Of a DNA stretch of 64,000 nt, positions 600 to 64,000 are shown one piece after another; the first letter of the stretch is position 1, and the number at the start of each line of letters is the position of its first letter. Source of the DNA: Spraguea lophii (Eukaryota > Microsporidia > Spragueidae); the NCBI GenBank assembly GCA_001887945.1, contig LDOQ01000088.1:62001-126000 (forward strand), given 5' to 3'. The notes beneath the pieces are model-generated. The model made no database searches. It was not told the DNA's origin and was given only the letters and a program-made list of their open reading frames with translations. The position numbers and the translations under genes are program-made.

Positions 600-1465
600 A
601 TCTTTCCCTTTTTATCGTGTGAAATTTTCTCAAATGGGCCCATATGAAATTTAAGAAATTTAAATTCCGAAATATGCCATGAAAAATTTTTTTTAACATT
701 AGTTCCTCGTGTTTTAACATATATCTTTAGTTTACACTACAGATTTTCAATGTTTTGAGTGTATATCTCTTTGTTTTCCGGGGACGCAAAATTGATTTTA
801 TGATTTACCCAAAAATGTTTAAATCCTATATTTTTAAGGCTAAGATGTCCTTTCCAACCATCTTTTATTATTGTAGAATCCTCTTTTATATTTTTTAAAA
901 CTATATTTTCAATGGGTTCACGGTTTCTTGTATGTACCATTTCAAAAAACCATCGTTTGGAGGTTCGTGATATTACACCAATGTATTATAATTGTTTAAA
1001 CCATCGGCTAATGTTATACTTCCTTTTATTGAAACAACTTTCATCAACTTCCACTATGTCTTTATACCCACCTATTTTTTCATATTCAGTTTTATTAATA
1101 ACGAGTTTTATAAGATCAATAACTTTGTTAATTAGTTTGTATTAGACTCCCAGTTCGTGTTTAATGTCTTTTATTCGTGTTTCACGAGACCATTCATATA
1201 TTATTAAAATTATATTTTTTAATGATATCCGAATACCTGAAAATACAGAACTGTCTCGTATTGAAATAGATGCTTTATTACATCTTTTAGTTTGACAAAC
1301 CCATATTAATATATCCGATACCTTTTTACTCTTTAAATACATCTCTTTTTTGCATTTTTTACATCTTCTTATTTTATAAATTACTCCTACATTGGAGGAG
1401 AAAGTAAAAATTTTATACGATAAATTAAGTTGTTCGTACAATGCTAATCTTGTAAACATGTGTTC
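600..1465 (-). pseudogene. ISXO2-like transposase pseudogene
   Basis: Read on the minus strand, it opens with a zinc-ribbon (CKKCKKEM, then WVCQTKRCNKA about 20 residues on). The DDE domain follows with VEVDESCF, RKYN, KDGWKGH, GFKHFWVNH and QNIENL, which are standard landmarks of ISXO2-like transposases (role: cut-and-paste of its own element). It is broken by an in-frame TAA at 1142-1144, a second TAA near 1004, and a TAG just after IENL where the family has Trp. Beyond that the frame shifts. The start is unclear; a Met within the inverted repeat is unlikely to be the native one. Confidence 0.8.
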
Positions 1466-1470
1466 TGTTT

Positions 1471-1516
1471 TATATAAACGCAAAAAAAGGGGGGTCCTCA
1501 AAGCAACTTTTACCGA
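1471..1516 (-). repeat. right terminal inverted repeat of ISXO2-like element
   Basis: This is the mirror of 519-564. An open reading frame on the plus strand runs through this repeat into the asparagine-rich gene at 1560, which would give that protein a spurious N-terminal extension if the true start were ignored. Confidence 0.85.
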
Positions 1517-1552
1517 TTTTTCTTACAATTTATATTTTAATAATATCTTTAA

Positions 1553-1556
1553 CCCC
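1553..1556 (+). promoter_or_regulatory. CCCC start motif
   Basis: CCCC ends 3 bases before the ATG at 1560. This is the microsporidian start-proximal motif seen before most conserved genes in this window, and it fixes the start downstream of the transposon repeat. Confidence 0.6.
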
Positions 1557-1559
1557 ACA

Positions 1560-3488
1560 ATGTTACCTATCACAAAAACACTACTCAATGACATATTTAC
1601 ATCAAACATAAAAATTACCACATTTACTATAATAAATAAAAATGTTTATTATCTTATGCAAAATAAAATATACAAATATAACATAGAGAAAAAAGAAACA
1701 ATATTACTTAAAGGTAATTACATAGATTATATGAGTAAATACAATAAAAATAATACATATGATAGTAGTAATAAAAATAATAAAGATAACAATAATGCAT
1801 ATGATAGTAGTAATAAAAATAATAAAGATAACAATAATACATATGACAATAATAATGCTTATGATAGTAATAATAATACATATGACAATAATACTGGTGT
1901 GATAAGATTTTATAATATAAATAATAAATTAATGGTGCTAACAGAAGACAAAATATATTTTTATAATACAGATTACGATTATTTGCATTGTTATAAATTT
2001 ATAAACAATGATTATATCCATAGAAATATAAATTGTATTAAAGAAGATAATAAAAAAAGTAATAAAAATAATATAAATAACAATAATATAGATAATATAC
2101 CGCATAGCAATACAAATAATAGTATATCTATTAATTCTACTACTTATTATACAGAATGTATAGATATATTATTTAATAGCTATTATCCTAATACATTTAA
2201 CAATAATATATTCTCATATCTTTATAATCAGAAGATAATATTACTTGATAAAGAGATAAATATTCAATATAAAAACAAATATAAAGATAATATGATAGTA
2301 GATTATTGTATTACAGATAAATATACATATTTTATATCCAATAGATCTACTATTTATAGAACAACCAATATATTATATACCAATAATATTATATTAGAAG
2401 ATAATATAACAATCCTAGATTACAGATATAATAGTAAGATAGATAATGATAAATATAATAATAGGATAAAATCTGATAACAAATCTATAATTAATAACAA
2501 TGATAATACAAATATACCTATACAGATAGAAGAATATAATAATAAATTATATGTATTATATAATAATTATATTTTAGTATATAATATACATTCTTATAAA
2601 GATAAAATAATATTAGAATTAGAATATAAACACAATTATAAATATATTAGTAGATTATATGTATACAATGGTATATATTTAATAAATAAATATAATATAG
2701 ATAGGATATGTAATAATAACATGGATAATAATAATAACATGGATAATAATAATAACAACATAAATAACAATAATAACACAGATAATAATATAAATAACAA
2801 CATAGGTAATATAATAGATATAAAGGATAATGTAATATTAAAATATAAGAATAATAATTATATATTTTATTCTTTATCTTCTGCTATAGAATATAATAAA
2901 TATAATATAGATAATAAAATATATAAAGAAGATAATAGATATTATGAATATAAGAATATTACATATGATAATTTTAATACTATAGATAATATATTAAACA
3001 ACAATAACAATATAAATAGTTTAAATGATTTAGATATACGTAATAACACTATAAATATAAACAATAAGGATATAAATATAAGTAATAACAATATTAATGA
3101 TGTGTCAGGGATAGAACGCATATTATATTTATTAAGATCTAATATTACTATACTCTCTATATTATCTGATATTAAATATGAATATAATATTCTTATAGAA
3201 AATAATGAGGATATAAAAGAAAGAAGAAGAATATTAGATAATAATAGAAATAAAATAATAGATAAATATAATAAGGTTAGAGAGATAGTATTATTAGATT
3301 CTATAAGAAATTGTAATATCAATAGTAATAGTAATAAATATAATGTTATTAATATTAATAACGGACTAATAAAGAATATCAAAGAATTAAGAAAGTGTAT
3401 AAAAAATAATAAAATAATAAAAGAAAAAGAAAATGTTAAGAAGATATTGTTACAACAGAATAAACTATTAAAGAAATATTATCGATAA
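1560..3488 (+). CDS. asparagine-rich hypothetical protein with C-terminal coiled coil
   Basis: This 642-aa protein is not recognised. The start is set by CCCC before 1560; the frame is open further upstream but that part lies in the transposon repeat. The N-terminal half has short hydrophobic beta-like stretches (MLPITKTLLNDIF, KIYKYNIEKKE, KLMVLTEDKIYFYN, KLYVLYNNYILVYNI) reminiscent of propeller blades, broken by Asn/Asp tracts. The last roughly 130 residues are charged and helical with heptad-like spacing (IERILYLLRSNITILSIL, then KERRRILDNNRNKIIDK). A propeller followed by a coiled coil resembles the Nup82/Nup88 nucleoporin layout, but this is only a shape resemblance. Residues about 66-95 are a tandem 14-residue repeat. 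Codons are extremely A/T-biased (AAT, GAT, ATA). Confidence 0.8.
   Translation: MLPITKTLLNDIFTSNIKITTFTIINKNVYYLMQNKIYKYNIEKKETILLKGNYIDYMSKYNKNNTYDSSNKNNKDNNNAYDSSNKNNKDNNNTYDNNNAYDSNNNTYDNNTGVIRFYNINNKLMVLTEDKIYFYNTDYDYLHCYKFINNDYIHRNINCIKEDNKKSNKNNINNNNIDNIPHSNTNNSISINSTTYYTECIDILFNSYYPNTFNNNIFSYLYNQKIILLDKEINIQYKNKYKDNMIVDYCITDKYTYFISNRSTIYRTTNILYTNNIILEDNITILDYRYNSKIDNDKYNNRIKSDNKSIINNNDNTNIPIQIEEYNNKLYVLYNNYILVYNIHSYKDKIILELEYKHNYKYISRLYVYNGIYLINKYNIDRICNNNMDNNNNMDNNNNNINNNNNTDNNINNNIGNIIDIKDNVILKYKNNNYIFYSLSSAIEYNKYNIDNKIYKEDNRYYEYKNITYDNFNTIDNILNNNNNINSLNDLDIRNNTININNKDINISNNNINDVSGIERILYLLRSNITILSILSDIKYEYNILIENNEDIKERRRILDNNRNKIIDKYNKVREIVLLDSIRNCNINSNSNKYNVININNGLIKNIKELRKCIKNNKIIKEKENVKKILLQQNKLLKKYYR
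1756..1839 (+). repeat. 42-bp in-frame coding tandem repeat
   Basis: Two copies of a 42-bp unit (1756-1797 and 1798-1839) differ by single bases and are followed by decayed partial units to about 1890. Each encodes AYDSSNKNNKDNNN. The unit length is a multiple of three, so copy-number change keeps the frame. Confidence 0.85.
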
Positions 3489-3675
3489 ATAATTAAAATA
3501 AATTATAATTATTTTTTTTATTCATATTCTATTTGTATTATTTTAATATTACATATATTATATCTATCTCCTTTATATTCTATTTGTATTACATCTATGC
3601 TATCTATCTCTACCTCTATCATCATATTATTTTTATATTATTTATTTAAATATTATTTTTTATGCACCCATAATT
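3489..3675. other. short intergenic spacer, pyrimidine-rich
   Basis: A TCTAT/CTC-rich spacer separates two co-oriented asparagine-rich genes. It ends in TGCACCCATAATT just before the next ATG, a CCC start motif. Confidence 0.6.
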
Positions 3676-6600
3676 ATGATAAAAGAACAATTAAAAATTA
3701 TACAAGAAAATAAAAATACAACAGATCTTAGACCTACATCTATTATAACATTGGTAGATATAGATGATAAAGATGAAATAGAAGTATATTATGAATTAAT
3801 AGAATTAATAAACAATTGTAATAATAATAGTAAGATAGATAATAATGATAATGATACCGATATTACTACTAACAATAATAATACCAATACAACTAATATA
3901 ATTAGTAATAACAAGGATAATATTATTACTGATAATAATGTTATTGATATTCTGAATAATCAATATTTTTATAAATATATAAATACTTCTACATTCAATC
4001 GTTCTCTTCTATCTTCTATTGAAGAAATATCATTTAACAAAGAATTTAAAATATTTCTTAAGAGTTTAATAATTTATAATAAATATAAATATTATAATCT
4101 ATTAATACAATATCTTATAAGAAAATATCATATAGATAAATATAATAGAAATGAATTAGAATATTTATTATTAGTAAATAATATAAGTATAAATAATAAT
4201 ACTGGTATAAAAGATAATAATAATATTACATATGGATGGTTAGCATATAAAATAAGAAAGGATAATATGTATATGAATATTATATTAGATTATATAGAAA
4301 TATATTGTAAACATAATATTAACAATACTGATATAGATAATGATAATACTAACATAGATAATAATACTAATATTACTACTACCACCACTACTAATAATAT
4401 TAAGAATATAAATAATATTTTATCTGTTTATGCATACAAACAATCTATAGAGAGTATAAAGATATTATTTAATAATACACTAGAATATATGTTAACAGAC
4501 AATAAACATCTATCAGATACAATTATAGATGGTTTAATAGATAAAATATATATGTTAGTAGAATATAAAGAATATGATATAGCTATAAATATATATAATA
4601 GAATGAATATAGAAATAGAAGACTTAGAGGATATATTACAACAACAAAAGAATAAAGATGATACAGAAAATAATGATAAGAATGATGATACAAAGAGTAG
4701 TAATAGGAATGATAAGAATATTATTGATATTAATATAGATAATACTGATACTAACACTACTACAGATATTATTAATATTAACATAGATAATTATGATTAT
4801 ATAATTAAGAATATGAAATATAATGATATAAACAACAATATAAAAGAATTATGTATAAAAATATTAAGATATAATAATTATAATGGTATATTAAATAAAT
4901 ATATAGATGATAATATTATAAAATATATTCTTAAATATATCAATGATAACAGTAATGATAATACTATAAGAGATAATATTACTCTATCACATAATAATAT
5001 AGAAGATAATAATAGAATAATATTAAAGAATATATTATCTATAGCTATTAATAAAAATATAATAAAAGATTATATAATAAACAGTATAATAGATAATAAA
5101 CTATTCTATTTATTGTTTAATAATAGATTAGAAGATAAAAGATATAATAAGATATTTAATAATCATATAAAAGATATAATAATAGATAATAAAGCAATAG
5201 ATGTAATAAACAGTATTAATAGTAAAATAATATACAATAAGATTATATCCAATATAATAGATTATTATTATAATGATAATATATCTATTCCTAATAATAT
5301 ATTATTGCTATTAAAAGACATAGATATAAAGAGATTAAATAATAAGAATAAAGAAAGAATAAACAATATAATAAAAGAAGATATTAAACATATAGATATA
5401 GAAGAATATATAATAAATAATAATGACAATGAAGATATACTAGTAAAAGTATTATATTCTATATTAGATTATATGATAGACAACAATAATAATGATAATA
5501 GTAATGATAATGTTATAGATACTAATAATCAAACTACTACTAATACTATTACTAATAATATTAATAATAAGGTGTTATTTAAAATAGATAATCATTGTAT
5601 AACTACTAATATTTATAATAATAAATATGTAATAAACATTATAGATAAATATTTATATAAATATCTATTACATACCATAGATAATGAATATTGGAAATAT
5701 TCTATTGTAATTATAAAATATATTATAGATAATAAAGAAGATAGAATAATAGAGAGTATAGATTATTTATTAGAATATAATATAAATAATAATTATAAAG
5801 AATTATTCTTATATATCCATAATAAATATAATAATGCTAAGATAGATAATAATAAGATTGATGATAATGGTAATAACAATGATAATGCTAACAGTGATAC
5901 TATTACTAATGATACTACTACTATTACTACTAATGATAATATTATTACTATCAGTAATGAGATAAAGAATAGAATATGTAATTATAAATATAATATAAAT
6001 ATATTGTTAGATAACTATGATCTATTATATATTCTTATAAAAGATTATAATTATTTTATATTACCTTATATACCTATGATATATAAAGATATTAAAAATA
6101 AATATTATAATGATAATGACATAGATAGTAATATAGATAATAATGTATTATATGATATAATATATATATTGATTATAAAGTATAAAGATATTATGAATGT
6201 TTATATTACAGATATCATAGATATATTACCATTAGAATATCTTATAGATTTAGAATCTTATATAAATGATAGTTCTAAGATATTAGAATATTTAAACAGT
6301 AATAATAAGATAGATGATAACAGTGATAACGATAACAATAATAGTAATACTACTAATACTATCACTATTAATAATTTAAATAATTTATTACATTATTTTA
6401 ATAAAGAATATAAATATAAAAATAAAGAAGAATATTTATTTATATTATTATTATCTAAGAATAATGATAATAAATATTATAATTATATATATAATACTAT
6501 AATAGAATATATAAAAGATAATAGTATATCAATAGATATAATATATATGTTATTAAATAATTATAATAATCATAAAGATAGTAATATGTATATATTAGAG

Positions 6601-7344
6601 TATATATGTAATAACCATAGCAATAATCATAGTAATAATGGTAACGATGAGATAGATATTACTAATAATATTAATGATAAATATAATTATAATTATTATT
6701 ATACTATCATAGGTAAAGGTATAGATAATTATTATTATAATAGAATTAATAAAGATATAGAAAATATATATTATTGTATAGATAATAATAAATATGATAT
6801 AGATATATATTTTAATATTAGAACTATAGCTATATATAATTATTTTAATAACAATAATAAATATAATAGTAATTATGATGGTAATTGTGATAATGGTAAT
6901 GATAACAAGTATGATAATAATATTACTACTGCTAATACTACTAATAATATTATTACTGATAAGATTAACTTTAGAAAGATATTACAATATTATTATAATT
7001 TATATTTAGATAACAAATTAGAATATATAAATATATTCTATGCTATTATTAATTGTTTAGATGATAATAAGATTATGTATGATTTTAATTCTATTTTATT
7101 AAAAGAATTATATAATAATAATAATAAGATGGATAATAAGATAGATGATGGTAATAAAAGAATAAAATATGATAATGGTAGTATGGTAAATGATAAGATA
7201 GTTAGATTATATAAAATATTATTTAAATATTCTATCCCATTTAGATTGTGTATATCACAATGTATACCTTATTTTGATAAAGGAAGTGAATATAAAGAAA
7301 TAAGAGAATTAATTAAGTATACTAAGAAATACAATAAATTATAA
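3676..7344 (+). CDS. large asparagine/aspartate-rich protein, function unknown
   Basis: This 1222-aa protein starts 10 bases after a CCC motif. It is built of predicted helical segments rich in Ile, Leu and Tyr (for example KYKYYNLLIQYLIRKYH, then EYKEYDIAINIYNRM) separated by long Asn/Asp/Thr tracts, and lacks transmembrane runs or a signal peptide. The pattern of helix pairs is that of an alpha-solenoid, as in large nucleoporins, coat or sorting proteins, but no family landmark can be seen. The C-terminus is the least degenerate part (YSIPFRLCISQCIPYFDKG), so it may carry the conserved function. It follows another Asn-rich gene on the same strand by 187 bp. An uninterrupted frame of 1,222 codons in such AT-rich DNA supports real coding. 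Confidence 0.85.
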   Translation: MIKEQLKIIQENKNTTDLRPTSIITLVDIDDKDEIEVYYELIELINNCNNNSKIDNNDNDTDITTNNNNTNTTNIISNNKDNIITDNNVIDILNNQYFYKYINTSTFNRSLLSSIEEISFNKEFKIFLKSLIIYNKYKYYNLLIQYLIRKYHIDKYNRNELEYLLLVNNISINNNTGIKDNNNITYGWLAYKIRKDNMYMNIILDYIEIYCKHNINNTDIDNDNTNIDNNTNITTTTTTNNIKNINNILSVYAYKQSIESIKILFNNTLEYMLTDNKHLSDTIIDGLIDKIYMLVEYKEYDIAINIYNRMNIEIEDLEDILQQQKNKDDTENNDKNDDTKSSNRNDKNIIDINIDNTDTNTTTDIININIDNYDYIIKNMKYNDINNNIKELCIKILRYNNYNGILNKYIDDNIIKYILKYINDNSNDNTIRDNITLSHNNIEDNNRIILKNILSIAINKNIIKDYIINSIIDNKLFYLLFNNRLEDKRYNKIFNNHIKDIIIDNKAIDVINSINSKIIYNKIISNIIDYYYNDNISIPNNILLLLKDIDIKRLNNKNKERINNIIKEDIKHIDIEEYIINNNDNEDILVKVLYSILDYMIDNNNNDNSNDNVIDTNNQTTTNTITNNINNKVLFKIDNHCITTNIYNNKYVINIIDKYLYKYLLHTIDNEYWKYSIVIIKYIIDNKEDRIIESIDYLLEYNINNNYKELFLYIHNKYNNAKIDNNKIDDNGNNNDNANSDTITNDTTTITTNDNIITISNEIKNRICNYKYNINILLDNYDLLYILIKDYNYFILPYIPMIYKDIKNKYYNDNDIDSNIDNNVLYDIIYILIIKYKDIMNVYITDIIDILPLEYLIDLESYINDSSKILEYLNSNNKIDDNSDNDNNNSNTTNTITINNLNNLLHYFNKEYKYKNKEEYLFILLLSKNNDNKYYNYIYNTIIEYIKDNSISIDIIYMLLNNYNNHKDSNMYILEYICNNHSNNHSNNGNDEIDITNNINDKYNYNYYYTIIGKGIDNYYYNRINKDIENIYYCIDNNKYDIDIYFNIRTIAIYNYFNNNNKYNSNYDGNCDNGNDNKYDNNITTANTTNNIITDKINFRKILQYYYNLYLDNKLEYINIFYAIINCLDDNKIMYDFNSILLKELYNNNNKMDNKIDDGNKRIKYDNGSMVNDKIVRLYKILFKYSIPFRLCISQCIPYFDKGSEYKEIRELIKYTKKYNKL

Positions 7345-9161: not shown

Positions 9162-9587
9162 AATAAATTATATAATATTATTCCGAGTATTCTTGGTTTA
9201 TGTTACTTGAGGAATACATTGGTTTGTTGGTAACTGTCATTGATGAATTTAAGGAGTAATCGTTTCTTAAGTAGTTTTCAAAACAACTTTGATGTTTTTA
9301 TTTTAAAACATAATATGGTTAGTTCAAGAATATATCTTTTGAACTTTATAAATAAAATTATTATATGGTTTTCGTTGATTTTTTTAATAATTTCTCATTT
9401 ATTTTAATAAAAAAATATTTTTTAATAAAATTTAATTTATTAAAGGTATTCTTTGTTTATAGATGTTAATTATACTCAAAAACCTTCTGTAATAACCACT
9501 TAAGTCTTCTTCTGTAATTTCGCAAAATCCCAATTCAATATAAGCATCCAACTCAGTTTCATTATTTGGTTCTTTGCGTGTTTTTTT
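9162..9587 (-). pseudogene. possible transposase C-terminal relic (weak)
   Basis: At about 9430-9580 the minus strand reads an open peptide containing ELDAYIELGFCEITEEDL then SGYYRRF. It resembles the C-terminal end of Tc1/mariner-type transposases, where an EDL..YYRR-like helix follows the catalytic domain. The SINE at 9588 appears inserted just N-terminal of this piece. No catalytic residues are seen and the match is weak. The rest of the stretch is featureless. Confidence 0.25.
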
Positions 9588-10077
9588 TACGAATGAAACT
9601 TTTATTTATCAAAGCTTCCTGGCCGGTTGCGGCCTACCATGGTCTGTGACCTTCGGTTCCTCAATCGAATTTAAGCTTGTACTAACTGGTTTCGCTACAG
9701 ATATGCATTAATCTCATCTTACCTTATGCTCCAGAATGTTAGGATTTTGCGTCTGGTGCGCGTCGCCGCCCCCACTTCCAGCTCTTAAGGAATTCCCAGC
9801 CTCTTTCGTTGCATAGTATTGGCCGAGTCACAAATCAATACAGGGATTGCAACTACATCAGCTAAACACTACTTTAATCTAGTAGCGGGGCCGTCATACA
9901 AGGCACAGCTATGCTGCACTATCGAAACCTCACCCACTCAACAACCTTTTTCTTCTCTTCTGCGTTTATTATTATTATTTATTTTTTTTTGTTTTGAAAT
10001 TTTTTTCTGGATGAGGGATTCGAACCCGCCAGGCTTGGGGTTTGGTTACCACCCCACGACCACTGGGCCAGGCGGGA
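9588..10077 (-). mobile_element. tRNA-headed SINE, near-full-length copy A
   Basis: About 490 bp and much more GC-rich than its surroundings, it is closely similar to the copies at 48288-48777 and 51315-51805. Read on the minus strand it begins GTCCCGCCTGGCCCAGTGG (an A-box-like element), continues to GGTTCGAATCC (a match to the Pol III B-box consensus GGTTCGANNCC), has a unique body, and ends ATAAATAAAAGTTTCATTCG plus an A run. Single-base differences from the other two place it slightly older. A target-site duplication is not clear. An open plus-strand frame across it is fortuitous: all copies share it without other coding signs. Confidence 0.85.
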
Positions 10078-10628
10078 CTCTCTTCTTTATGGTATTGTAT
10101 AAATTCTTTTTGGAACAAAGGAGAATATTGCCAAATTATGATATATCATGAATTTTTCAACATCAATATTGTAAATGCTATTCGTATAACAGAAAAACTC
10201 TTTTAATGTAATTGTTACAGATTCCCTTACTTTCGATGTTAATTTTTTTTAGATATTTGTATTAATTGTTTATATTATCTGAAAAGCCGGGTTATTACTT
10301 TGAGTATTGGGTAACCATTTAATTTCAAATAAAATGTAATACCACTTTACAAAATATTAATATTTATAAAAATTATGAAACAATAGATGAGGCTAAATCA
10401 AAGAAAATTCTAAATGCAGTGGCATGGTACACTTTTCCTTGAGAAAAATAATTTTGAGGATTTTAAAAGTTTGTTGCAAAAAACAACATAATAAAGATTA
10501 ATATCGTTGATAAAAATTAATAAAAAATCTATATTTTCTAAATAGCGTGCGATATATTTAGTATATTGTTTAAAAACATAAAAAAAAATATTTAAAATAA
10601 AAATATTTCATACGACATCAACTTTTAT
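10078..10628. other. intergenic, no supported gene
   Basis: It separates the SINE from the ABCG stop codon. Weak open peptides occur on the minus strand but none shows a family landmark. It may contain the upstream half of the relic noted at 9162-9587. Confidence 0.4.
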
Positions 10629-24707: not shown

Positions 24708-25112
24708 ATTTTTTTATCGAAATTCCTTGGCAGTTGCAACCTACCATGGGTTATGGCCCTTACTTCCTAAAGCACGTCCAAATCTGTACCAGCCAGTTTA
24801 ATTATAAATATGCTTCAATCTTATCTTGTCTTAGACTCGAAAACGTTAGGATTTTGAGTATGGTGTACGCCCCGCCCTGACCTTAATTTTAATCTCCTTC
24901 TTGTTATAGTATTGACTGAGTTAAATTATATAGCAATTACAACCACGCCAGTTAAACATTGTTTCAATCTATTAACGGGATATCATGCAATGTATAATCG
25001 AACTATGTTATAAACCCTTCATCCATCCAATTATGTTTTTTTCTTCTTCTTTTTATTTTTTTAATTTTTTTGAAAATTTTTATATGGAAGGTTTTGAATT
25101 CATTAGGTATCT
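24708..25112 (-). mobile_element. degraded SINE copy E
   Basis: This is the same family as 51315-51805, read on the minus strand. Recognisable stretches are the CCTACCATGG region at 24739, GTTAGGATTTTG at 24844, the GC-rich GTACGCCCCGCCCT core at 24867, and the tRNA-like head reduced to TTTTGAATTCATTAGG at the right. The overall base composition has drifted toward AT. The 3' A-tail side is at the left. Confidence 0.75.
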
Positions 25113-29297: not shown

Positions 29298-29790
29298 CCG
29301 ATCGCTTGATCAAATGACCACTGGATTATAACCAAATATTTAATTTAACATACTCAAACTTCTAGTGCAGAAAAAGTTACAAAATAAAAAAAACATAAAA
29401 GACCATTAGAATAAAAGAAGTTATATTGAATAGATAAATATTTAATATTGTAACTCAGTTATACCCTATAAGATGATTCTACTACTAAATTAAAATAGTG
29501 CCTATCTGATATCGTTATAATATTTATATTGATTAGAAATTCTATCAATATTATCTTATTAAAGGAAATTTGAATATCATTAAAGATAATAGAATTATGA
29601 TTGCTCCATGCGTAAACTTTCAACATTTTGGAGTATAAAATAAAATTATATCAACATAATTATTGTAACAAACTTATTAAATACAAGATATTTGCTTTAA
29701 AGAACCAATAATAACAGATTATAATAGATTACAATATCCCGGAACATTTCTAAAATAGTTAAAGTATTATTTAAAAATATATTTGTTTAA
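29298..29790 (+). mobile_element. strongly degraded SINE copy F
   Basis: It aligns by eye along the whole family consensus: GCTTGATCAAATGACCACTGG near 29305 (head), CTAGTGCAGAAAAAGTT near 29362, CTACTACTAAATTAAAATAGT near 29481, ATATTGATTAGAAATTCTAT near 29527, and TTACAATATCCCGGAACATTT near 29730 (near the 3' end). The GC-rich positions have mostly become A/T. The full length is retained despite heavy substitution, so this is an ancient insertion. Confidence 0.6.
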
Positions 29791-34054: not shown

Positions 34055-34310
34055 AGACTTTCCAAAATAGGAAAATAATATAACAAAAGTAACAATGAGA
34101 ATTGTAATCGAATATCTTATATATGCTATATACGATGGTCCTACTACTAATTTAATGATTAGCTAGCATTGATTTACGACTAAGTCAATGATGTACTAAG
34201 AAATAGGGAACAATGATAATTAAACCATACTCAATCTTTAATATTCTGAAGCATAGGGTAAGATCAATACAAATATATTACAAAGCTAATACAAGTATAT
34301 TACACGTTTT
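34055..34310 (+). mobile_element. strongly degraded partial SINE copy G
   Basis: The middle part of the SINE family is recognisable: TATACGATGGTCCTACTACTA near 34130, TTGATTTACGACTAAGTCAA near 34170, then AAGCATAGGGTAAGATCAAT near 34251 (consensus GGGCATAAGGTAAGATGAGA). The head and the 3' tail are not readable. Confidence 0.55.
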
Positions 34311-36380: not shown

Positions 36381-36856
36381 GTCCGTTTGGCTGAGAGGTC
36401 GTGAGGGTGATAATCAAACCCCAAGACTGACGGGTTCGAATCCCCCACACAGAAGATTTTTCAAAAAGGATAAAAAATAGGTGAGAAAAGAAAAAGGGTG
36501 TGAAATTCGTGAAGATTCGATAGTGTGGCATTGGTTATACTTTATACGACGGCAATGCTATCAGATTAAAGTAGTAGTTAAATAGTGTAATTGTGATTCC
36601 TATATTGATTGTGATTCAGTTAGTATTATGCTAAGAATGAAATTAGAAATTTCCAAAAAGTTGAGAGAATGTGTCAACGTGCATTATACGTAAAATATTA
36701 ACGTGCTAACACACAAAATAAGATTAATGCATATATGTAGCCAACCCACTTAATACATGTTTAAATATACTTTAGAAACCAAAGTTATAGACCACAGTAG
36801 ACCGTAGTCAGTTAAAAAATTTCAATAAATAAAAGTTTCATTAAAAAATAAAAAAA
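36381..36856 (+). mobile_element. full-length SINE copy D, moderately diverged
   Basis: The head runs from GTCCGTTTGGCTGAGAGG (A-box-like) to GACGGGTTCGAATCC (perfect B box). Body blocks are AGATTAAAGTAGTAGTTAAAT, AAGATTAATGCATATATGTAG and AGACCACAGTAGACCG. The end is ATAAATAAAAGTTTCATT plus an A-rich tail. All parts of the consensus are in order with many substitutions. It ends 31 bp before the ATG of the Pol alpha B gene, with that gene's CCC motif just beyond. Confidence 0.85.
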
Positions 36857-47480: not shown

Positions 47481-48272
47481 AATAAAAAATCATATTAAAT
47501 AATTTAAATTATTCTTTTAACAACGATGCTATGGCTGCTATTTTAAATTCTCTTAATTTCACATTTTAAAAAAATTGAAATACAAAAATAATCAATTGTT
47601 TTAAAAATAAATGTTATTATTTAAGTAAATATGAAAACTGTTAGATGGTTTAATTATCAAATAAAAATATTCATTAAAAAATTTATTAAGGAATATTTTT
47701 AATACATGAAACTTTTATTTATAGAAATATCGTTACCTATTACATTCTATTGTTAATTTTAACATTCGGCTCTTGGATATTTTTCAAAATATATTTATTG
47801 ATTTTTATGATATTAACATTAACATCATCTTATCTTTTGTTTCAAAGGATGGAAATTTTATTTGATATACGTTCTCACCAGTTTGTTTTTATGAAATTAT
47901 CAATTTCTCAGGTAAATATATATTGCTCAAATCAACTGTAAATACACAGGCGTCTTTGAGTATTCTTTTATATAACACGATAAGACCTATATAAGCACAT
48001 AATGTTATATTGTTGTAATCCTGTTAGTTTTGTATTCAAAAAGATTGAAACTTGTGGTTTTTTTTCAAATATTTTTTAAATCTGATAATCACTGTATACC
48101 ATCCTGAAGGTTTTTTTAAAATTAATAATTTTATGTATAATCCAGAAAGTAAATACAAAATATTTACTTTATATGAAAATATAAATTTATTCAATGACAC
48201 ATATAACATGAAATAAAATTAAGAACTGAATATGTATTATAACTCTGATAAAAAAAAGGTTTACAAAAAAAA
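47481..48272. other. intergenic, no supported gene
   Basis: A 63-codon open frame at 47750-47941 has no start motif or family landmark. The region is more mixed in composition than plain AT spacer and may hold old transposon sequence that I could not place. Confidence 0.4.
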
Positions 48273-48287: not shown

Positions 48288-48777
48288 TTTTTTTACGAAT
48301 GAAACTTTTATTTATCAAAGTTTCCTGGCCGGTTGCGGCCTACCATGGTCTGAGACCTTCGGTTCCTCGAGCGAAATTAAACTTGTACTAACTGGTTTCG
48401 CTACAGATATGCATTAATCTCATCTTACCTTATGCTCCAGAGTGTTAGGATTTTGCGTCTGGTGCGCGTCGCCGCCCCCACTTCCAGCTCTTAAGGAATT
48501 CCCAGCCTCTTTCGTTGCATAGTATTGGCCGAGTCACAAATCAATACAGGGATTGCAACTACATCAGCTGAACACTACTTTAATCTAGTAGCGGGGCCGT
48601 CATACAAGGCACAGCTATGCTGCGCTATCGAAACCTCACCCACTCAACATCCTTTTTCTTCTCTTCTCCGTTTATTATTATTCTTTTTTTGTTTTGAAAA
48701 TTTTTCTGGATGAGGGATTCGAACCCGCCAGGCTTGGGGTTTGGTTACCACCCCACGACCACTGGGCCAGACGGGAC
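48288..48777 (-). mobile_element. tRNA-headed SINE, young copy B
   Basis: This 490-bp insertion has a perfect 15-bp duplication on both sides, the mark of target-primed reverse transcription. It reads on the minus strand from GTCCCGTCTGGCCCAGTGG through B box GGTTCGAATCC to ATAAATAAAAGTTTCATTCG and an A tail. It is nearly identical to copy C at 51315-51805. It is far more GC-rich than its neighbourhood, and it has no protein of its own, so the enzymes must come from elsewhere (inference). Confidence 0.93.
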
Positions 48778-51303: not shown

Positions 51304-51314
51304 TCCTATTAGAT
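51304..51314 (+). repeat. target-site duplication of SINE copy C (left)
   Basis: TCCTATTAGAT, repeated at 51806-51816. Confidence 0.85.
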
Positions 51315-51805
51315 GTCCCGCTTGGCCTAGTGGTCGTGGGGTGGTAACCAAACCCCAAGCCTGGCTGGTTCGAATCCCTCATCCAGAAAAATTTTCAAAA
51401 CAAAAAAAGAATAATAATAAACGGAGAAGAGAAGAAAAAGGATGTTGAGTGGGTGAGGTTTCGATAGCGCAGCATAGCTGTGCCTTGTATGACGGCCCCG
51501 CTACTAGATTAAAGTAGTGTTCAGCTGATGTAGTTGCAATCCCTGTATTGATTTGTGACTCGGCCAATACTATGCAACGAAAGAGGCTGGGAATTCCTTA
51601 AGAGCTGGAAGTGGGGGCGGCGACGCGCACCAGACGCAAAATCCTAACACTCTGGGCATAAGGTAAGATGAGATTAATGCATATCTGTAACGAAACCAGT
51701 TAGTACAAGTTTAACTTCGCTCGAGGAACCGAAAGTCACAGACCATGGTAGGCCGCAACCGGCCAGAAAACTTTGATAAATAAAAGTTTCATTCGTAAAA
51801 AATAC
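51315..51805 (+). mobile_element. tRNA-headed SINE, young copy C
   Basis: This is the reference copy of the family in plus orientation. It runs from GTCCCGCTTGGCCTAGTGG (A-box-like), through a hairpin GGGGTGGTAACCAAACCCC in the anticodon-arm position, B box GGTTCGAATCC at 51366-51376, and a body with GC-rich core GGGGGCGGCGACGCGCACC, to ATAAATAAAAGTTTCATTCG and A6. An 11-bp duplication flanks it. The tRNA-like acceptor ends do not pair, so it is not a functional tRNA gene. Confidence 0.93.
51366..51376 (+). promoter_or_regulatory. RNA polymerase III B box of SINE copy C
   Basis: GGTTCGAATCC matches the B-box consensus GGTTCGANNCC. With the A-box-like TGGCCTAGTGG about 42 bp upstream it forms a type 2 internal Pol III promoter. 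Confidence 0.75.
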
Positions 51806-51816
51806 TCCTATTAGAT
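51806..51816 (+). repeat. target-site duplication of SINE copy C (right)
   Basis: Identical to 51304-51314 (11 bp). Confidence 0.85.
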
Positions 51817-52044
51817 CCTCCTGTTTTTTAAAATGTTCATATGTTTCCACTTATTCTTTATGTTTTGTGTGTGGATTGCAGGATTATTTGGATCCACAAA
51901 ATTCTTGGAGTGATTTACGCATAATGAGTATAATTCATTACGTTAATGGATTATCCCATTTCTGCGAATCAGAAATAATGGTTCTTCCTTTTTTATACTG
52001 CGAACTACGATTTTTTACGTTTTGATGCATTTCTTTTAGTAGTT

Positions 52045-52057
52045 ATTTCAAAAAACA
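52045..52057 (+). repeat. target-site duplication of short retroelement (left)
   Basis: ATTTCAAAAAACA, identical to 52203-52215. In the host pseudogene it encodes the duplicated VFFEI stretch. Confidence 0.85.
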
Positions 52058-52202
52058 GGGGAGTTTTTAGAGGGTGCAAGGCCCTCAGTATCCGGACCCC
52101 GGGATCCCTGACCCTTATTACCATGGAGTGTAATAGTCGCAAGACCCTAGTAATAAGTGGGTGAAAGGTTTTCTCCTCCTCTGGTGGAAAACAAAAAAAA
52201 AT
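52058..52202 (+). mobile_element. short (145-bp) SINE-like retroelement nested in ISXO2 pseudogene
   Basis: GC-rich; starts GGGGAGTTTTTAGAGGGTGC and ends in CAAAAAAAAAT. The perfect 13-bp duplications and terminal A run indicate insertion of a reverse-transcribed RNA. It can fold: GAGGGTGCAAGGCCCTC forms a hairpin, and CTTATTAC pairs with GTAATAAG around AGTCGCAAGAC. It is unrelated to the 490-bp SINE by eye. The parental RNA is not recognised; no clear A or B box is seen. A worn relative lies at about 58575-58670. Confidence 0.8.
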
Positions 52203-52215
52203 ATTTCAAAAAACA
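52203..52215 (+). repeat. target-site duplication of short retroelement (right)
   Basis: Identical to 52045-52057 (13 bp). Confidence 0.85.
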
Positions 52216-63657: not shown

Positions 63658-64000
63658 TAGAGGAATTTAACCTAGTAATCATATTCCGATAATCAAATTC
63701 TAAATTTATTCAATTCGGAAATTGTTTACAAAAAAATGAAGTAGAAGAGTTAAATATATGAAGGCTCGTTGGTATACCTTAATTATGTATTATATACCTC
63801 ACTGTTATATTAAAGTAATGTTTGGTTGGTGTGTGTATACTCCCTGTATTAAATCGTAATTTAGCAATATTATACTAAAAAAAATTAGAATTTTATCAAG
63901 ATGGAGAAATAACCAGTAAACCATTAATAAATTTCTAACGATCTGGAGCATACGACAGAGAAACATCAATCATCTATAATACATGATAAAACCGCGTAAT
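63658..64000 (+). mobile_element. degraded SINE copy H, cut by the window end
   Basis: ACCTAGTAATCATATTCCGA (head), then AATTCGGAAATTGTTTACAA (B box and following). The TTATATTAAAGTAATGTTTG region corresponds to AGATTAAAGTAGTGTTCAGC, and TACTCCCTGTATTAAATCGT to CAATCCCTGTATTGATTTGT. It continues past the end of the window. Highly A/T-converted, as in copies F and G. Confidence 0.65.

Follow-up and report, generated by a model that had tools for sequence, protein, structure and literature searches.

A recently active SINE family and its likely LINE partner in a microsporidian genome, with old copies directly behind tRNA genes

We describe a family of short noncoding elements of about 489 nt in a microsporidian genome (5.27 Mb, 73 contigs), which is very probably a recently active SINE family mobilised by a LINE, here called LINE-B, whose reverse transcriptase would recognise a 3' segment that the two elements share. 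The analysis started from one element, copy C, in a 64-kb stretch of DNA (hereafter the window, C34:62001-126000; names beginning with C and a number are contigs). An earlier note made from the letters of the window alone had described copy C as a tRNA-headed SINE. Young copies of the family carry target-site duplications, A tails and 5' truncations, and several old copies stand immediately behind tRNA genes.

Results

Structure and promoter of the element

Copy C is an element of approximately 490 nt lying between perfect 11-bp duplications, as read in the window sequence, and its 3' end is an A-rich stretch (Table 1). The earlier note had reported this duplication, an A-box-like start, a perfect Pol III B box, the absence of coding capacity, a terminal A run and a length of about 490 bp, and all of these were confirmed. 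The A-box consensus is TRGYNNARNNG, which TGGCCTAGTGG in copy C matches. The longest ATG ORF overlapping the element has 54 aa, with its start codon in the flank. The A-rich 3' end recurs in the listed young copies, and the 40 best-scoring copies across the genome are full-length relative to copy C. In the majority sequence of the family, a perfect A box at position 9 and a perfect B box at position 53 have tRNA-like spacing.

The description as tRNA-headed held for these boxes and their spacing; no tRNA parent was found. In the comparison with the tRNAs of the genome that the note had suggested, the head was, beyond the boxes, no closer to the 57 genome tRNAs than shuffled heads were, the best global score (17.0) being equalled by 90 of 200 shuffled heads that kept the boxes. 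Neither ARAGORN nor Rfam called a tRNA in the head. What had been called a tRNA head amounts to promoter boxes at the spacing of a tRNA, for which no tRNA parent could be identified.

Table 1. Features of the window and tRNA genes followed by an old SINE copy. Numbers without a contig name are window positions.
Feature	Location	Strand	Remarks
SINE copy C	51315..51805	+	young; differs by 1.84% from the majority sequence of 22 copies
5' target-site duplication TCCTATTAGAT	51304..51314	+	
3' target-site duplication TCCTATTAGAT	51806..51816	+	
Pol III A box TGGCCTAGTGG	51323..51333	+	element position 9
Pol III B box GGTTCGAATCC	51367..51377	+	element position 53
Segment common to copy C and LINE-B 3' UTR	51720..51770	+	two-hairpin fold predicted in both elements
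3' tail of copy C, ending in ...GATAAATAAAAGTTTCATTCGTAAAAAATAC	51771..51805	+	not clearly shared with LINE-B
SINE copy	48289..48777	-	99% to majority sequence; 15-bp duplication AAGCATTAAGAATAA
SINE copy	9583..10078	-	97%; no duplication found
Old SINE copy	36383..36848	+	69%
Old SINE copy	24709..25098	-	65%
Old SINE copy	29368..29777	+	60%
Old SINE 3' piece	47696..47847	-	61%
Old SINE internal piece	63797..63882	+	67%
Marginal SINE match	34224..34309		E 0.009
LINE-A 5'-truncated 3' end	52057..52201	+	13-bp duplication TATTTCAAAAAAC at 52044-52056 and 52202-52214
SINE-linked tRNA	C45		Ala, read from anticodon
SINE-linked tRNA	C52		Tyr, read from anticodon
SINE-linked tRNA	C43		Leu, read from anticodon
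SINE-linked tRNA	C47		Lys, read from anticodon
SINE-linked tRNA	C40		Asn, read from anticodon
SINE-linked tRNA with intron	C56:81625		Ile, read from anticodon
SINE-linked tRNA	C33		Ile, read from anticodon

Family size, age and host

When copy C (51315-51805) was compared with the assembly, as the earlier note had proposed, the best 40 of 454 first-look candidates, those that were scored, were full-length and 96-100% identical to it (copy C counted), and five smaller pieces stood beside them at 75-88% identity. With the copy at 48289-48777 as the query, the best genome matches reached 99%. A 24-mer from the 3' part of the SINE, allowing up to three mismatches, occurred at 141 genome sites (65 plus 76), some of which will be LINE-B 3' ends that differ from the pattern by three mismatches; the reversed 24-mer had none. 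Similarly, the reversed SINE consensus gave no match at E 0.01 over the retrieved DNA of the genome. Divergence from the majority sequence ranged from 0.4 to 2.3% among 22 full young copies, and older copies span approximately 60-90% identity. The window holds three young copies including copy C, five old ones and one marginal match, in agreement with the at least seven relatives counted in the earlier note. Copy counts for the family are lower bounds because repeats end contigs in the assembly. Seven contigs (C15, C25, C54, C56, C58, C63 and C11) start at the same position within the SINE or LINE-B.

The host, which had been called microsporidian-like, is a microsporidian, since the relatives of its transketolase are microsporidian: the named hits among the best were Hamiltosporidium (53%), Astathelohania (51%) and Spraguea (49%), and the closest listed transketolase apart from the genome's own was 53% identical. 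A transketolase named as that of the ant Nylanderia fulva (50% identical) ranks among the microsporidian ones and is possibly a microsporidian contaminant of that assembly. A microsporidian SSU rRNA model found no match in the assembly. Nine 5S rRNA genes are dispersed in the genome, two of them, on C18, no more than about 1.1 kb from young SINE copies. In the window, two long ORFs (676 and 1222 aa, window positions 1458-7344) are rich in AAT/GAT-type low-complexity repeats.

Retroposition signature

Duplications were scored at 30 young copies, a non-random set composed of the eight best genome matches, one more window copy and further copies including those at tRNA and LINE loci. Under a strict test (duplication of at least 9 bp), 18 of the 30 were positive compared with 4 of 870 mismatched-flank pairs, with lengths varying from 11 to 16 bp; none of 12 old copies was positive. 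A relaxed test found duplications at 25 of the 30 young copies, against 39 of the 870 mismatched pairs. The absence of duplications at other copies, which the earlier note had named as evidence against a SINE, was hence not what we observed. In the listed young copies an A run stands before the 3' duplication, and 8 of the 30 are truncated at the 5' side with the 3' end kept. Taken together, the duplications, the A run and the 5' truncation point to LINE machinery and not to a DNA transposon or an LTR element, and they support the SINE nature of the family.

That the element is instead a MITE, a solo LTR or a structural-RNA gene family is barely conceivable. Its short length and lack of coding capacity would suit such an origin, but duplications of variable length, an A tail and 5'-truncated copies that still carry duplications all argue against it. 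Homology to a structural RNA, another outcome that the earlier note would have taken as contrary, was not seen either: no Rfam family reached its gathering score in the 64-kb window. A small-RNA search of 20 SINE loci returned two tRNA matches at gathering score and nothing else.

The relaxed test found no duplication at five of the 30 young copies, two of which have swapped ones. These two, L066 and L067, are opposed copies approximately 0.6 kb apart (C1:142551-144528), each carrying the duplication of the other. For the swapped pairs, none of 1,000 shuffles was as good in either case, compared with 990 and 950 of 1,000 for the unswapped pairs. The pattern fits an inversion of about 0.6 kb through SINE-SINE recombination. 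SINE copies appear to have produced at least one inversion, and they also end contigs in the assembly.

A likely LINE partner

The earlier note had predicted that an active or recently active non-LTR retrotransposon must exist or have existed in this lineage, and the genome does contain a LINE that shows the motifs of an endonuclease and a reverse transcriptase. LINE-B is a composite of separate contigs and two old copies, and no single complete copy was seen. The end of one contig (C72:1-1646) encodes an endonuclease-like stretch, which looks APE-type from its sequence, and behind it the first part of a reverse transcriptase; C61 carries the reverse-transcriptase C-terminus, a CCHC-like zinc knuckle identified by reading and the 3' UTR. 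The order of the parts comes from old copies, one on C48 that joins the C72 part to the reverse-transcriptase C-terminus and one on C1 that joins it with the C-terminal and 3' parts. The C-terminal zinc-knuckle frame is open in C61, C11 and C63 (209, 209 and 208 codons, no stop), and these frames are 90-95% identical pairwise. Pfam matches of the endonuclease and reverse-transcriptase pieces fell below the curated cut-offs, except for the reverse transcriptase of the old C48 copy, and no Pfam family matched the C-terminal part. Protein relatives of the endonuclease part are remote (20 proteins, the best 31% identical over 95%), and none was found for the C-terminus among 323 candidates at E 0.001. 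At least 17 LINE-B 3'-end matches were counted at 16 loci, and 13 of these matches begin at or before query position 1330. The 3' ends finish in A runs, and for some of them duplications could be made out by eye.

The 3' part of LINE-B matched SINE copies with 84% identity over 55 bp in the genome search (E 7e-9) and copy C itself with 83% over 47 bp (E 7e-6), and the similarity is colinear for about 100 nt from near the LINE-B stop codon. The same hairpins are predicted around the shared segment in the RNAs of both elements (z -3.2 and -2.4), with covariation not above control (86 of 500 shuffles as high). The comparison with LINE 3' ends that the earlier note had called for thus gave a divided answer: a 55-bp segment of the 3' UTR is shared, but the last 100 nt or so of LINE-B differ and have no counterpart in the SINE. 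Over their terminal 26-28 nt the two are weakly alike (161 of 5,000 shuffles as good), and the terminal 28-nt similarity, convincing by eye, was rejected because it failed this shuffle control. A search of the retrieved DNA of the genome for a LINE that has the SINE's own tail at its end found none. An exact 28-mer from the shared segment had no occurrence in viral or prokaryote contigs, which has no bearing on other microsporidia.

The partner of the SINE is likely LINE-B or a close relative of it. We think it unlikely that the true partner is another LINE and that LINE-B merely shares an ancestral 3' UTR motif. The different tails of the SINE and LINE-B speak for another LINE, as does the presence of further LINE-like sequences in the genome, namely LINE-A and C5, the latter a below-cut-off reverse-transcriptase match with stops. 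Nevertheless, two LINEs were compared with the SINE and sequence in common was seen for LINE-B only; LINE-A was rejected as the partner as its 3' UTR matched the SINE at shuffle level.

With LINE-B or a close relative as the partner, Pol III would transcribe the SINE from its internal A and B boxes, and the LINE-B reverse transcriptase would recognise the 3' segment of the RNA, as the shared sequence and fold suggest. The LINE would presumably nick the target, prime on the A tail and copy the SINE RNA, sometimes stopping early and leaving 5'-truncated copies. Duplications, mostly of 11-16 bp, are the signature observed at the insertions that this enzymology would produce.

Other retroelements were seen along the way. 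A LINE-A remnant with a perfect 13-bp duplication stands about 240 bp downstream of copy C. Near the start of C21, LINE-A and LINE-B 3' parts form a nest (C21:509-2008), which reflects either an insertion of LINE-A into LINE-B or a truncation of LINE-B, and where the A run of LINE-B adjoins a piece of a further LINE copy. Reverse-transcriptase frames at C73:40003 (515 aa, open), C44:27834 (395 aa, open) and C48:16630 (with stops) look by eye like Ty3/gypsy LTR elements.

Old SINE copies behind tRNA genes

We searched the flanks of 57 tRNA genes for SINE sequence, covering 700 nt downstream of each (379-392 nt for six genes). The upstream stretch covered was about 700 nt at 30 genes, 175 nt at one gene, 100 nt at 20 genes and 20 nt at six. 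Sixteen SINE pieces were counted by hand, one of them weak (C31, E 2e-4). Behind seven of the 57 genes, an old SINE copy begins at +9 to +23, in the orientation of the tRNA and behind the terminator T-run (Table 1), where 0.11 starts would be expected if the 16 pieces were evenly spread. Among T5+ runs in the window, 1 of 900 has a SINE start within 23 nt. In five of the seven loci the SINE starts 1-2 nt past the end of the T-run (at C52, the second of two runs); the linked copies at C56 and C33 are 5'-truncated and start within about 8 nt of the T-run, at a position that cannot be placed exactly. All seven linked copies are old (62-90% to copy C), and no copy of at least 91% identity lies in the +9 to +23 zone behind the 57 genes. 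The young copies near tRNAs (on C9, twice on C16, and upstream of the C45 gene) lie outside the zone in the opposite orientation.

Six of the seven linked tRNAs belong to multi-copy sets, which hold 24 of the 57 genes by our grouping rule (hypergeometric P 0.02). For the linked Tyr gene the rule overlooked a nearly identical sister at C50; with that pair counted, the figures become seven of seven against 26 of 57 (P 0.002). LINE-A and the LINE 5' part had no match in the searched flanks, and LINE-B was represented there by no more than its SINE-like segment plus three matches that were short and weak. A TATA-like upstream element is rarer before linked tRNAs (1 of 7 compared with 32 of 44), a difference that deserves little weight, the motif having been chosen post hoc; of two further motif tests neither reached significance (P 0.13 and P 0.32), and with a position matrix P was 0.09.

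Repeats around the joined units were scored as well. At C56, a 13-nt repeat with one mismatch brackets the whole unit, reading TACAAAACTTCTT ahead of the tRNA and TACAGAACTTCTT past the SINE (1 of 1,000 shuffles as good), the best of 51 tRNA flanks by a narrow margin (10.5 compared with 10.0 for two others). Nothing clear surrounded the five other tRNA-SINE units scored, and at C40 no repeat was visible by eye. At C45, an 8-nt repeat, ATATTTTT, fits a duplication of the SINE only (43 of 1,000 shuffles as good), one weak case among six units. On C29, a degenerate tRNA-Lys followed by AACTTTT is joined to a SINE. The trailers of two intact Lys genes begin with these same letters, and no clear duplication surrounds the joined unit (163 of 1,000 shuffles as good). 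The SINE behind the tRNA-Asn on C40 is split by an element of approximately 1.28 kb (L024, 1684-2965). Read by eye, this element has TA and long inverted repeats at its termini, and by those features alone it looks Tc1/mariner-like.

Discussion

Two explanations of the tRNA-linked copies were weighed, and we favour a template-switch fusion of tRNA and SINE over targeted insertion. We give an even chance to the proposal that the seven linked copies and the C29 unit are single retropositions in which the LINE reverse transcriptase ran from SINE RNA onto pre-tRNA, the tRNA part being mostly kept by selection. Having copied all or part of the SINE RNA, the enzyme would jump onto an unprocessed pre-tRNA ending in a U-run, intron included if present. 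Such a switch would explain why tRNA and SINE share an orientation and meet at the T-run, and it would also account for truncated copies, retained introns and extra gene copies. Direct but slender support comes from the repeat around the C56 unit and from the fused tRNA-Lys on C29. Early studies are credited with proposing that new SINEs arise by template switching (PMC4476161), and human pre-tRNA retropseudogenes are reported as products of the L1 machinery (PMC4476161, citing earlier work). Cellular RNA fused ahead of a retroposon is also reported for U6/L1 (PMC4476161), WEIRD-MGL and WEIRD-MgSINE (PMC2104539), in the same orientation, and for tRNA/LINE-1 chimeras (PMC13174262). The human tRNA/LINE-1 chimeras (n=21) are described as mostly antisense tRNA halves, whereas here full tRNA genes with their trailer T-run precede the SINE.

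The linked copies may instead be targeted insertions by LINE machinery behind existing tRNA genes, in analogy with TRE3 and Skipper-2 of Dictyostelium, a possibility that we regard as rather doubtful. Each of those elements sits behind tRNA genes, and TRE3 does so in the orientation of the tRNA (PMC5911963); the same-orientation starts at +9 to +23 behind seven of 57 genes recall the zone of Skipper-2 (8-23 bp) and the orientation of TRE3. They are autonomous elements with targeted insertion, while for the SINE targeting is one of two readings; a 2018 review states that insertion downstream of tRNA genes is found only in dictyostelid genomes (PMC5911963). The 8-nt repeat at C45 would fit targeting, and selection against insertions at single-copy tRNA genes would also yield the excess of multi-copy sets. 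Against it stand the absence of any copy of at least 91% identity in the zone, the starts 1-2 nt behind the T-run in five of seven loci, the membership of most linked tRNAs in multi-copy sets, the C56 repeat that surrounds the whole tRNA-SINE unit and the degenerate tRNA-Lys fused with its trailer to a SINE on C29.

Fungal SINEs offer the closest parallels to the element itself. AfuSINE2 of Aspergillus fumigatus likewise has Pol III boxes, direct-repeat duplications of 4-14 bp and a length of up to 493 bp, but a low copy number, whereas the SINE described here has many more copies (PMC5063351). Mg-SINE of Magnaporthe has a 3' end similar to that of its LINE, MGL (PMC2104539). Both occur in fungi, while our SINE belongs to a microsporidian lineage and lacks an identified tRNA parent. 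In microsporidia, a SINE class of 28,669 bp (0.18%) is tabulated for Nosema bombycis (Table 2, PMC3614468), likewise a microsporidian SINE category. This is a total only, and the main text of that paper uses "SINE" once, without a family, structure or partner. Parisot 2014 (PMC4202319), de Albuquerque 2020 (PMC7313128), PMC12558613 and PMC13174016 contain no word beginning with "sine" in their main text. The earlier note had been aware of no described tRNA-SINE like this one. Given the Nosema bombycis table, microsporidian SINEs are not wholly new; as far as the literature was searched, this is the first detailed description of a microsporidian SINE family.

A young SINE together with its likely LINE partner indicates that a very reduced genome recently ran LINE-driven copying, and the insertions are markers for populations of such parasites. 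If the tRNA-SINE junctions are fusions, they open two old questions to testing in one small genome: by what route SINEs come to have a tRNA head, and whether functional tRNA genes can be gained through retroposition. A reduced genome would then owe new tRNA genes to SINE activity, and every joining of a tRNA to a truncated SINE would amount to the birth of a SINE.
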